Source: Candidatus Contendobacter odensis Run_B_J11
Lineage (GTDB): Bacteria; Pseudomonadota; Gammaproteobacteria; Competibacterales; Competibacteraceae
Assembly (NCBI RefSeq): GCF_000531125.1
Contig: NZ_CBTK010000295.1
Span: forward strand, 1-64,000
Direction: 5' to 3'
Length of the DNA stretch: 64,000 bases
The position numbers and the translations under genes were made by a program. The notes under the pieces are model-generated. The model was given only the letters and a program-made list of their open reading frames with translations, made no database searches and was not told the DNA's origin. Positions 29,130 through 33,081 of the stretch are shown in pieces (within the stretch, counting starts at the first letter, position 1; every line of letters starts with the position of its first letter).

Positions 29130-30211
29130 GATAAATCCTTAATCAGGGCGGTAGCATGAATCGGCATGGTTGAATCGATAACGATAGGCACCTGCTTTTC
29201 CCTAGCCAGCAGCCGAAGATGTTCAACATCAGGATGATCCAGATCACGCAGCAGCAATAAATCGGGCAAACGGCGCAATAAAACCCGAGTCGCTTCGGCG
29301 ACACCCGGCTTGACGAAATTGCGGTCGCTAATCCGGTAATCGGCATGGATGCGCACCAGAAACTCCACCATGAGCCGCCGGCGATCCAATCGTGTACCGG
29401 GATCGTGGCGCACTTCAATCGGTTTAGCCCTGGCGAAATGCTCAGCAACCCGATCGAGAAACCAGTTGGAACGGTCATGCTGGACAAACTCCGGGTAAAA
29501 CACGCAACCGTGAAAATCCTCCGGGCCAATAGCCGCATTGAGAATCGAGCGGCTGGTCAAGCCAGAAACGGTGGCATTGAGAATGCCGCTGGGAATAGCG
29601 TAATCATCGTAAGTCGCAGCCACATCAGCGACACCGCCCATATCGGACACCACATACAGCGCCTCAGTCAGTTGCTCAGGCTGGCGGGCGTTCCAATGCC
29701 GTAGCGCTTGCCGCAACTCCTCAGTAATCACCCCTTTAGCAGTCCAACCGTCCACAAAGGCCAATCCTGCCGGTTCCCGCCCTTCCTGCCGCAACATAAA
29801 CGCCAGTGCATTCTCATCAATTCCCCGGTCGCGGATAATGGAAATCGAGTAATGGCGGGCATCCGCCCGACCCTGTTGCTGCAAAGCGCGAGTCAACAGC
29901 GCGCCAATCGGAGTCCCGGCGCGGGCCAGCGACACCACCGTAATTTGCCGGGGGCGCGTTGCCATCAGATGACAGGCCAGCGCCATAATCTCCGTCGCCA
30001 GTCGCCGGGCGTAACGGACGGTCAGCGCCTCGAACAGCTCCAGATAACGCAGGTCCGGTGCCCGCTCCGGCGCCAGCATCTCGCTGTAATGGCGCTGGCC
30101 GGACTGAATCAGGCGTTCCTTGGCCGCCACATCGACCGTCTCCATAGCCATCGGCTTGAGCAGAAACACGGTATCTTCGGGACGGTAGCTGCCGGAAAAT
30201 GGGGTCGTCAA
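29126..30211 (-). CDS. PRTase-fold/StiP-family protein with C-terminal PELOTA domain
   Basis: The 361-residue protein matches the StiP family (named as a cysteine protease in databases but with a phosphoribosyltransferase-like fold). The PRTase part (about 60-260) includes ITVVSLARAGTPIGALLTRA, SISIIRDRGIDENAL, LAFVDGWTAKGVITEEL and YVVSDMGGVADVAATYDDYA with SGILNATVSGLTSRS. The last 90 residues (from about GTRLDRRRLMVEFL) fit the PELOTA RNA-binding domain described in ter operons. The start is TTG at 30211, overlapping the HAD stop as TTGA, with GGAG about nine bases upstream. Predicted role: glycosyl-bond chemistry on a base, perhaps with RNA contact; this is not demonstrated. Protease activity is the name-based alternative, which the PRTase motifs argue against. 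Confidence 0.83.
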   Translation of the reverse strand: MTTPFSGSYRPEDTVFLLKPMAMETVDVAAKERLIQSGQRHYSEMLAPERAPDLRYLELFEALTVRYARRLATEIMALACHLMATRPRQITVVSLARAGTPIGALLTRALQQQGRADARHYSISIIRDRGIDENALAFMLRQEGREPAGLAFVDGWTAKGVITEELRQALRHWNARQPEQLTEALYVVSDMGGVADVAATYDDYAIPSGILNATVSGLTSRSILNAAIGPEDFHGCVFYPEFVQHDRSNWFLDRVAEHFARAKPIEVRHDPGTRLDRRRLMVEFLVRIHADYRISDRNFVKPGVAEATRVLLRRLPDLLLLRDLDHPDVEHLRLLAREKQVPIVIDSTMPIHATALIKDLS

Positions 30212-30945
30212 CGGGACCCGCTCCAGGTTTCAGTCTGAATCTGACTGTCCTTGGGCACCAGAGCGAAATCGCAGGCCCGCAAAAAGGGGATATCGGTGAG
30301 GCTGTCACCAGCACCAATCGTCACAATTGGCCCGTCCCGTTCCAGTTCCGCTACCACCCGGCGCACCGCATCCTGCTTTTGCGCACCCTTGACCGTGATC
30401 GCGAGATTGTTGCCGTTGCAGTGCAACGTCAATTCCGGCGGCAGTCCGACCTTTTGCAACTGCGCCCGCACCCGCACCAGCGCCACGCCCTCATCATTGG
30501 ACTTGACCGAGACATAGGTTAGCCATTCATCAACCGAATGGCTGCTCACCCGATAACCTCCCGCTGTGGCGTCAGTAGTCAAGCGGGCGGCGAGACTCCA
30601 CAACAGCGGTTGCGCCGCTACCAGCAACGGGCGCACCTGGGTATACCACCAGGTCGGCAGGAATCCGTTAGGCTGGCGGATGACCGCGCCGTGATGGGTG
30701 ATGCGCCAGGAGGTGAACGCAATATTCACCCGCGCCAGTGCATCATCGGTGCGGCCGGTTACCGGAATCACCGTACCCTGATCCAGCCAGAACGCCAGCA
30801 AGCGCTGCTGGGCGCGGGTCATAAATGACAGCGCCCGACCGGTGCGATCCATTGCTGCCGGTATGACCGCCTCACCGGGCGGACACTTGGGCGCGGTTTG
30901 CAGAATAGTGTCGTCGAGGTCGAGAAAAATCACGATGCGCGGCAT
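30208..30945 (-). CDS. HAD-superfamily phosphatase of the ter operon
   Basis: A 245-residue HAD hydrolase. Motif I is FLDLDDT (residues 7-13, nucleophile Asp and acid/base Asp), motif II is in PVTGRTDDAL, motif III is the Lys in AITVKGAQKQDAV and motif IV is GAGDSLTDIPFL. The cap region between about 85 and 195 resembles the C2B caps of sucrose-phosphate and trehalose-phosphate phosphatases, so a phosphorylated sugar or nucleotide is a reasonable substrate. It overlaps the upstream PRTase/TRSP gene by 16 bases and the downstream StiP-like gene by four. HAD phosphatases recur in ter biosynthetic operons, where they are proposed to dephosphorylate the product of the PRTases. Confidence 0.88.
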   Translation of the reverse strand: MPRIVIFLDLDDTILQTAPKCPPGEAVIPAAMDRTGRALSFMTRAQQRLLAFWLDQGTVIPVTGRTDDALARVNIAFTSWRITHHGAVIRQPNGFLPTWWYTQVRPLLVAAQPLLWSLAARLTTDATAGGYRVSSHSVDEWLTYVSVKSNDEGVALVRVRAQLQKVGLPPELTLHCNGNNLAITVKGAQKQDAVRRVVAELERDGPIVTIGAGDSLTDIPFLRACDFALVPKDSQIQTETWSGSR

Positions 30946-32075
30946 GATTCCTCCACCGCAACCGCCAGACCGCCCAGATCGTCCGCCAGGGAATGCGCAG
31001 CCAGCATGGCGGGATGTTCGTAAACGATCACCGGCAACCGGACCGGATCGAGGTTATAGAGATAGTTGGGAATGCCATCGCCGTAGTTGTCCAGAAATTC
31101 TCGCCGACAGGCAATGGCGTCGCCAACCAGAATCGGCGACCGGGTGGTGGACTGATAACGCACGTCGTAGCCTTGTTCTTCCAGCGCCAAGGCCATCCGA
31201 AAGGGCGTATAGGCATACTCGCCAGTGCCAATGATCGCCAACGGCTGATCCTTCCTCCCCCTCGCCCTGACACTCTCCCACTGGGAAAGAGAATTCGTGC
31301 GCCAACGTCCCGCAATTAAACCGGTGCGCGCTGAATCGGTCGCTATGTCATCGTGACTACGATTCGGATGACCTATCACCCATGGCAAAACCGGCGCTGG
31401 GAATCGCGGATCAGGCTCAAATTGGAAACTACCCTCGATCAACGCCGGGAACAGCAGCGGACGTTCCAGCAGCGCCGTCAATTGCTGCTGCTGCGTGACG
31501 CTCAGCCAGTGAGTGATACAGACCAGCGCGATCTGCTCGATGCCCGGATTCAGCCGCAAACAGGCGCGGGCCAATTCCGCCAAGGTGCGTCCGGTCGAGA
31601 TTTCATCATCCACCAGCACCAGGGTTCGTGCCGCCCGAAACAGCGGCTGCAACGCCGGATCGGGCAGATAGACCGCATGATCCGGGGCGTGGCTGTGGCA
31701 CTCGTCGAAACCGAACGCCAGCGGGCGCGACAACCGACAGCGGGTGGTTTGCAGATACAAAATATCGTCACGCCCGGTTTGCAGCGCGGCTTCCTCGGCC
31801 ACGCCGCGCCCCAACGCCGTCGCCGTTTCCGCCATCCCGATGACGAGCAGCGGCCCCGGCAAATGAGCCATTTTCTCAGCCAGGCGCCGGTGAACATCGC
31901 GCATCACCCGGGGCCGAACCGGCCAGTGCTTGCCCAACACCTTGCTGACAAACAGGTAGTGTCGCTTCGGATTCTGGCGGGTGGCGCCGGCCAGACAATC
32001 CTCCAGCGCCAGTTCCTCACGCCGGGTAGTGATCATCATCCGTCCGGCTTGAATCGGTAGGGTCAGACTTCGCAT
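30930..32075 (-). CDS. Phosphoribosyltransferase with TRSP domain, carrying a repeat insertion
   Basis: The 381-residue protein has an N-terminal PRTase domain with the PRPP loop LVLVDDEISTGRT (about 153-164) and LLVIGMAETATALG, then a C-terminal TRSP domain (about 278-375; LAIIGTGEYAYTPFRMALAL, LDNYGDGIPNYLYNLDP, VYEHPAML). Residues about 261-276 (NSLSQWESVRARGRKD) are the translation of a palindromic intergenic repeat inserted in frame exactly at the domain junction. ATG 32075 has GGAG five bases upstream and begins 10 bases after the glycosyltransferase stop. In ter operons this PRTase is proposed to attach or remove ribose-phosphate from a base; the substrate is unknown. Confidence 0.87.
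   Translation of the reverse strand: MRSLTLPIQAGRMMITTRREELALEDCLAGATRQNPKRHYLFVSKVLGKHWPVRPRVMRDVHRRLAEKMAHLPGPLLVIGMAETATALGRGVAEEAALQTGRDDILYLQTTRCRLSRPLAFGFDECHSHAPDHAVYLPDPALQPLFRAARTLVLVDDEISTGRTLAELARACLRLNPGIEQIALVCITHWLSVTQQQQLTALLERPLLFPALIEGSFQFEPDPRFPAPVLPWVIGHPNRSHDDIATDSARTGLIAGRWRTNSLSQWESVRARGRKDQPLAIIGTGEYAYTPFRMALALEEQGYDVRYQSTTRSPILVGDAIACRREFLDNYGDGIPNYLYNLDPVRLPVIVYEHPAMLAAHSLADDLGGLAVAVEESCRAS
31256..31297. repeat. Palindromic repeat inserted in frame inside the PRTase/TRSP gene
   Basis: CCTCCCCCTCGCCCTGACAC followed by TCTCCCACTGGGAAAGAGAA is a typical dispersed GC-rich repeat whose translation gives LSQWERVR-like peptides. The same kind of element, in the form CCCCTCTCCCC...GGGCGAGGGG, occurs at 36792-36817. 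Its position between the two domains of the host protein, with the frame kept, suggests insertion tolerated in a flexible linker. Confidence 0.7.
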
Positions 32076-32085
32076 GGCCGCTCCG

Positions 32086-33081
32086 TCACAGACTCAGATC
32101 GTTGAGGATAGCGCGGACTCGATGACCATAGGTGTGTTCGGCCAACACTCGCCGGCGACCGGCCTCGGCCACGCTCGTCGCAACCGCCGGATCCCGGCGC
32201 AACCGCGCCACCAGCGCGTTGAGTTCATTGGTATCCCGATACACCAGAATTTCCCGGCCCGGCTCGAAACAGCGCGGTAAGTCGGGCAGATCATCGTTCA
32301 ATACCAGTGCGCCGCAGGCCAGCGGCTCAAAACTGCGCTGATTCAAACCGTGTTCTACATTAGCTTCGTTACGGATGTTCAATACTGCCCGATGACGTTG
32401 ATAGAGTCGGATGAGCGCGTTGCGGCTGATTTTTCGATTCTGCACCCGATGAATTCCGTCGCGCGCCAGCCCGCTCCAGTCGGTGCCAATGACGAGAGCA
32501 GGCGCATCCAGAGCGCGCACTACCGCTTCACGAAACAGGGTGCGGCTGGCAACAAACAGCAGTTCAGGATGACGCGCAGCAGTGCCGGGTGCGAACAACT
32601 CCGGGTCTACCGCCAGCGGCAAATAATGACCCGTCGTGGTGAAACCAGCGGCTTCAGCGTCATGGAAAAAGCGGGTATCGGTGAAATAGAGCCGGTCGCA
32701 ACTATTGGCCCGCTCGCGGCAGTCCAGCGGAAACCGGTCACCCACCAGACCGGCAATCAGTGGGCGCCGGGCCAGTGCGTACAGCATCCGGTAATAAGCC
32801 GGCGGTACCCCAAACACGCCAGCCACCAGCACCAGATCGGGACGAAACCACGCCAGCATCCGCTCGAAGCGGGCCAGCATCCAATCAGCGCTGGCCGAGT
32901 CGCGCCCCTGCCACTTGACCCGCAGCCGCGAACCAAGGCTATCGCCGTTGATAGCAAAAACCTGGGTGGCATGGCCCAGCCGGATGCAAGCGCGATGCAG
33001 GTTTTCCAGCCATAACACCAGACTGCCGCGCTTGCCGAGTAACAGAATCCGGGCGGGTCTCCGGGCCGTCGCTGTTATCAC
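32086..33081 (-). CDS. GT-B glycosyltransferase of the ter operon
   Basis: A 331-residue protein with a two-domain GT-B layout. N-terminal part: ARILLLGKRGSLVLWLENLH, LVLVAGVFGVPPAYYRML. C-terminal part: ALDAPALVIGTDWSGLA, ALIRLYQRHRAVLNIRNEAN, then NQRSFEPLACGALVLNDDLP and GREILVYRDTNEL, which match the glycosyl transferase group 1 C-terminal donor-binding region (Glu in FEPLACG). The start is GTG at 33081 in a GTGA overlap with the ATP-grasp stop; the open frame continues upstream but only through the antisense of that gene. Donor and acceptor are unknown. Some ter operons carry such an enzyme next to the ATP-grasp and PRTase genes. Confidence 0.83.
   Translation of the reverse strand: MITATARRPARILLLGKRGSLVLWLENLHRACIRLGHATQVFAINGDSLGSRLRVKWQGRDSASADWMLARFERMLAWFRPDLVLVAGVFGVPPAYYRMLYALARRPLIAGLVGDRFPLDCRERANSCDRLYFTDTRFFHDAEAAGFTTTGHYLPLAVDPELFAPGTAARHPELLFVASRTLFREAVVRALDAPALVIGTDWSGLARDGIHRVQNRKISRNALIRLYQRHRAVLNIRNEANVEHGLNQRSFEPLACGALVLNDDLPDLPRCFEPGREILVYRDTNELNALVARLRRDPAVATSVAEAGRRRVLAEHTYGHRVRAILNDLSL

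Follow-up and report, generated by a model that had tools for sequence, protein, structure and literature searches.

An intergenic-type BoxC repeat read in frame between the two domains of a PRTase_2-TRSP gene

A 33-nt repeat of the intergenic BoxC/PIT type has probably come to lie in frame in the linker between the PRTase_2 and TRSP domains of an enzyme gene, where it appears to be carried as a tolerated, decaying spacer. The gene was found in a window of 64,000 nucleotides, the whole stretch of DNA that was analysed, which belongs to contig C295 of a 4.6-Mb assembly (genome G000). Judged by its sequence, the repeat is a BoxC / PIT / intrastrand-triplex motif, a short and widespread bacterial repeat that usually sits between genes. 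The window copy has protein domains on either side within one ORF, and hence it is not intergenic. As far as sequence comparison goes, the addition to what is known is a coding BoxC copy that occurs in one linker across several genera. The features of the gene are listed below.

30930..32075, minus strand: ORF of a PRTase_2 + TRSP enzyme, 381 aa (Pfam; 26 of the 40 order genomes have an orthologue)
31431..31985, minus strand: PRTase_2 domain, residues 31-215 (Pfam, E 2.3e-59)
31023..31265, minus strand: TRSP domain match, residues 271-351 (Pfam, E 6.7e-17)
31236..31307, minus strand: variable inter-domain linker of 24 codons, RWRTNSLSQWESVRARGRKDQPLA, between conserved AG and IIGTGEY (alignment of orthologues)
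31251..31289, minus strand: peptide LSQWESVRARGRK, residues 263-275, derived from the repeat and its edge (translation; predicted helix at 263-272)
31259..31291, minus strand: decayed BoxC / PIT / intrastrand-triplex motif (consensus as excerpted from PMC4666352, profile, shuffles)
31283-31291, 31271-31279 and 31259-31267, minus strand: Y arm, R arm and third-strand arm of the motif, respectively

The PRTase_2-TRSP gene and its neighbours

The window protein passes both Pfam cut-offs (PRTase_2, 200.5 bits against a cut-off of 28.8; TRSP, 62.0 against 25.0). Neighbouring genes on the same strand have Pfam matches to C-C_Bond_Lyase, StiP-PELOTA_1, glycosyl transferase, ATPgrasp_Ter, AIM24 and TerD, and the gene sits in what is, by predicted domain content, a TerD-associated (ter-type) biosynthetic operon. 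In one Foldseek run, the PRTase_2 part resembled APRT-type (adenine) phosphoribosyltransferases; comparison of solved structures with the PRTase_2-TRSP family profile gave no match. Between the StiP-PELOTA and PRTase_2-TRSP genes lies an ORF (30208-30945, minus strand) that starts with MPRIVIFLDLDDT and has no Pfam match at 1e-3. Judged by eye from its motif, it is presumably HAD-phosphatase-like.

Identity of the repeat in the linker

The repeat at 31259-31291 (minus strand) has the composition CTCTTTCCC-AGT-GGGAGAGTG-TCA-GGGCGAGGG and is translated in frame as LSQWESVRARG. It was compared with the consensus given for BoxC / PIT / TM(ECO) in the excerpted text of PMC4666352, CCCTCNCCC-N3-6-GGGNGAGGG-N3-GGGNGAGGG. 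The window copy agrees at 21 of the 24 fixed positions (3 mismatches), a decayed match and the sole one in the 64 kb, and it differs from CTCTCCCNNNGGGAGAGNNNNNGGGNGAGGG by 1 mismatch.

We asked how far an ordinary linker could resemble the repeat by chance. The shortness of the motif argues for such a resemblance and nothing beyond it does, whereas 0 of 100 shuffled windows contained a match to the consensus as good as that of the window copy. On a profile built from 48 genomic copies outside the PRTase_2-TRSP gene, the window copy scored +35.0, and none of 618 windows taken elsewhere in these genes scored as high (the best reached -8.5). Codon usage also bears a signature of the repeat: all three AGG codons of the window gene fall inside the insert, and none of the 32 Arg codons that lie outside the linker is AGG. 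Against these controls, a chance likeness is hardly credible.

The original prediction of a repeat within 31256-31297 is thus borne out by consensus, profile and shuffle controls, with the repeat proper at 31259-31291 on the minus strand, and the view that a palindromic repeat, dispersed and for the most part intergenic, is here read in frame at a domain junction is supported. The further genomic copies that it expected were found as well: with a looser pattern at no more than 3 mismatches, the genome holds 17 matches at 16 places (two overlap), the window copy included, and the same pattern reversed gives 0 matches. The position 'exactly' at the junction needs refinement. The repeat is indeed inter-domain; more precisely, it lies where the linker ends on its C-terminal side, just before the first TRSP strand.

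Other searches of the region were uninformative as to family or structure. A search of the same genome with the 95-nt segment returned, besides itself, weak partial matches only. No Rfam family reached its gathering threshold in 30000-33000. Nor did a repeat finder pick up an inverted repeat between 30800 and 31700, presumably because the arms are too short and decayed.

Repeat sequence in the linkers of orthologous genes

Searching 40 genomes of the order gave 28 with a match, and 26 orthologues were counted, that of the window genome included. Outside this count are a distant copy in G001, which lacks the repeat on inspection, and a fragment in G021. The distant G001, G052 and G095 were left out of the fourfold-identity, AGG and profile comparisons, and the same three, together with G037 (in which the gene is split), were left out of the trees and linker lengths. 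Taken between AG and [VIL]IGTGEY, the linker ranges from 17 to 27 aa, as against 355-357 aa for the rest of the protein (n=25 orthologues).

BoxC sequence is recognisable in the same linker of 8 of the 26 orthologues, which represent four genera in all. These eight linkers score above every background window on the profile (G000, 35.0; G006, 30.1; G003, -1.1; G022, 44.0; G024, 52.1; G028, 2.6; G017, 12.3; G030, 9.4), and the other 18 do not. The best fits to the consensus are those of G024 (24 of 24 fixed positions) and G022 (23 of 24). Of the 38 Arg codons in the eight linkers that carry the repeat, 16 are AGG, as against 12 of the 801 Arg codons that lie outside the linker when all 26 genes are taken together; the Fisher p of 2e-16 for this enrichment overstates independence because the sequences are related. 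Candidate repeats in genus g12 (G025 and G036, for example) and in genus g11 (G032, G035 and G038) did not rise above the profile background and were scored as repeat-free. Linkers of 17 aa without any repeat occur in G004, G005, G007, G009, G012, G031 and G037.

These comparisons modify the claim that the insertion would simply be absent from related genomes. It is absent from the same-genus orthologues G004, G005 and G007, but seven orthologues besides that of the window have related sequence in the same linker. None of seven distant TRSP-type homologues (L124, L125, L126, L130, L131, G001 and G052) has the same residues at this position. Nor was a linker of about 15 residues added, as had been proposed: relative to the 17-aa linkers that lack a repeat, the linker has gained a net 7 residues, since part of the native linker was replaced as well.

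Two orthologues contain one in-frame stop within the match (G032:C17:5786-6910 and G026:C6:97210-98343), which may reflect decay, the end of the gene or an assembly error. An 80%-identical orthologue is present in L061 (JAAUTD010000043.1), titled Synechococcaceae cyanobacterium SM1_2_3, a name that looks wrong.

How often repeat DNA arrived in the linker

The linker of G011 (L160, G011:C76:40780-40812) carries a different dispersed repeat, CCCCCTTTTTAAAAATGGGGGCGCGGGGGATTT, which recurs 5 times elsewhere in that genome with no more than 3 mismatches (6 places in all), with 0 matches for the reversed pattern. This second family also has a pyrimidine-purine-purine plan, and a related pattern is present in 25 of the 40 genomes of the order. 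The linker has therefore received repeat DNA at least twice.

For BoxC itself, the evidence on the number of arrivals conflicts, with strand, frame and the distance to [DE][RQ]PL on one side and the tree and the G022/G024 identity on the other. The linker may be a landing hotspot, where each lineage acquired its own BoxC insertion at a single favoured site and in one orientation; we consider this a serious possibility, although not the favoured one. Independent insertion is consistent with the patchy distribution of the repeat. Placing the eight repeat-bearing genes in one clade is rejected (p-AU 3.7e-7), and a tree of 8 rows with the repeat versus 17 without it requires at least 5 changes between presence and absence, of which the starred branches alone force 2. 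It is also consistent with the near-perfect copies of G022 and G024, whose repeats are identical at 28 of 31 positions despite only 49% identity at the fourfold sites of the genes (n=151). Neutral drift from one old copy would yield this likeness with a binomial probability of 1.4e-6 at the fourfold rate and of 0.0097 at whole-gene identity. The other repeat family at the same place in G011 points the same way, as does the scarcity of the motif in the G024 genome, which has only 2 copies at no more than 2 mismatches, one of them in this linker.

A hotspot accounts less readily for the uniformity of the insertions. Strand and frame are identical in all eight linkers, the best of which read L-S-x-W-E-x-V-R-x-R, though 4-5 of the six frames of a BoxC copy are open (mean 4.6 of 6 in 48 copies). 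The distance from the repeat to the following conserved [DE][RQ]PL is similar in most repeat-bearing linkers. No consistent target-site duplication was seen in a search by eye, and no clean empty site was found.

Most likely, in our view, the repeat arrived early and was then often lost, with a presumed renewal through re-insertion or conversion in some lineages. One BoxC arrival would predate the split of G000, G006 and G003, whose shared decayed copies belong to a supported clade (97/89). The motif would since have decayed and in places been lost, as reported for triplex motifs; frequent loss fits the excerpted account of triplex-motif sites in PMC4666352, where changes between E. coli strains are mostly small, with the motif deleted or mutated. 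In G022 and G024, a near-perfect motif may have been kept, or else renewed, whether through a fresh insertion or through conversion from other copies.

The repeat as a probable spacer in the protein

We infer a tolerated spacer because the segment is variable in length and sequence and lies outside the conserved motifs. A reading frame without stops would have let the repeat persist as a basic, possibly helical spacer, and in the window genome it is probably near-neutral as well as decaying. AlphaFold2, run with a shallow alignment of 18 rows, predicted a helix at residues 263-272, near where a poorly ordered inter-domain stretch (222-278) ends on its C-terminal side, just before a TRSP strand at 279-284. 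This helix, together with the recurrence of WERVRVR-like residues among linkers, could be taken to mean that the peptide has a function under selection, namely to join the two domains as a basic amphipathic helix. However, confidence in the helix is low (mean pLDDT 65 for residues 261-270), and close relatives have 17-aa linkers without the peptide; we regard a selected function as very unlikely. The notion of protein evolution by repeat insertion holds as a description of how the segment originated, any benefit to the protein being hypothetical.

Conservation of the repeat as DNA

Copies of the repeat outside the linker allow its fate as DNA to be considered. Of the 40 genomes from the order, 16 contain a stricter BoxC pattern; at one mismatch, 41 of the 274 genomes from the class contain it. 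We compared the flanks of 50 copies, taking only 2 of the 35 copies of G023 and leaving out the weaker rows from the window genome. Seventeen copies fall into 7 shared sites at which both flanks match, so that site sharing is common for the BoxC repeat; 5 of these sites, that in the PRTase_2-TRSP gene included, extend across genera. Others common to different genera are L082, L115 and L049; L085 and L096; L111, L118 and L045; and L044 and L083. G023 itself (genus g10, a 2.7-Mb genome) is far above the other genomes of the order in copy number, and its 35 copies are mostly identical.

Shared sites of this kind, and a repeat better conserved than the adjacent non-coding DNA in several aligned pairs (L044/L083, for example), raise the alternative that selection or conversion preserves the repeat as DNA, just as at intergenic sites, with the peptide an incidental product. 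The state of the motif within the gene family argues otherwise. Counted from sequence alone, the window copy retains 7 Watson-Crick pairs out of 9 and 6 triplets out of 9, G024 has 9 of 9 triplets and G022 has 8 of 9, but G003, G017 and G030 have only 2-3; G028 is absent from this count because deletions break its motif. With so few triplets in the window copy, G003, G017 and G030, most of these genes do not maintain the motif. In addition, neither the region nor the motif by itself folded as RNA with excess stability (z 0.90 and 0.43, respectively), which gives no support to a function as a transcribed hairpin in the window. Published tests of the motif, as excerpted from PMC4666352, found no promoter or terminator activity. 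Maintenance for the sake of the DNA thus seems unlikely in this gene, and the tolerated, decaying spacer is preferred.

Relation to known repeats

In the excerpted text of PMC4666352 (Holder et al. 2015), E. coli MG1655 has 23 copies of BoxC/TM, always intergenic. The window repeat shares with BoxC/PIT/TM(ECO), as described there, the order of pyrimidine arm, loop, purine arm, 3-nt loop and third-strand arm, as well as dispersal and the loss or change of copies. Unlike the E. coli elements so described, it lies in frame in an enzyme gene and is decayed to 6 of 9 triplets. Searches of open-access literature yielded no reports of coding BoxC copies.

Coding palindromic repeats are best known from Rickettsia, and here one is tied to the widespread BoxC/PIT element. 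According to excerpts of PMC10969869 and PMC2229807, which describe the work of Ogata et al. (2000, 2002), the Rickettsia RPEs are small palindromic repeats of about 100-150 bp that lie in frame in conserved protein genes. The window repeat is likewise a small palindromic repeat in frame in a protein gene; it differs from the RPEs so described in having 33 nt, in matching BoxC and in occupying one linker in several genera, with length alone setting it apart from that class. GTAG/CGTC REPs, in the excerpted account of PMC3733652, are intragenic in several species, and many add some 20-30 aa. The window repeat resembles these intragenic REPs as a REP-sized palindrome within a gene, and direct reading of 31251-31297 against the excerpted definition (PMC3733652) found neither GTAG nor CGTC next to the arms. 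As pristine, decayed and repeat-free orthologues coexist in one family, the cost to the protein and the fate of the motif are directly comparable.

A second in-frame case in the same genome

Among 17 rows from the window genome that were examined, two sit in an ORF that stays open for 100 codons or more in both directions, namely the window copy and L052. The latter is in a GH94_b-supersand protein gene (L052:570-2570; G000:C299:16927-18927), in which two repeat units are in frame between domains, LTPDLFPMAGEG...PSPLAGEGRGEG, in a reading frame that differs from that of the PRTase_2-TRSP case. The linker of the GH94-like orthologues is variable at the same point. Tentatively, and with a somewhat unlikely reading in mind, a triplex motif in frame may, through its structure, drive turnover of the linker by local deletion, replacement and renewal, altering the length and sequence of the linker while the domains stay fixed. 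If so, the PRTase_2-TRSP and GH94-like proteins would be Competibacteraceae examples of such turnover, involving two triplex-like repeat families. A copy of the second family, L163 (G011:C36:72163-72195), falls within the coordinates of the GH94-like gene of G011.
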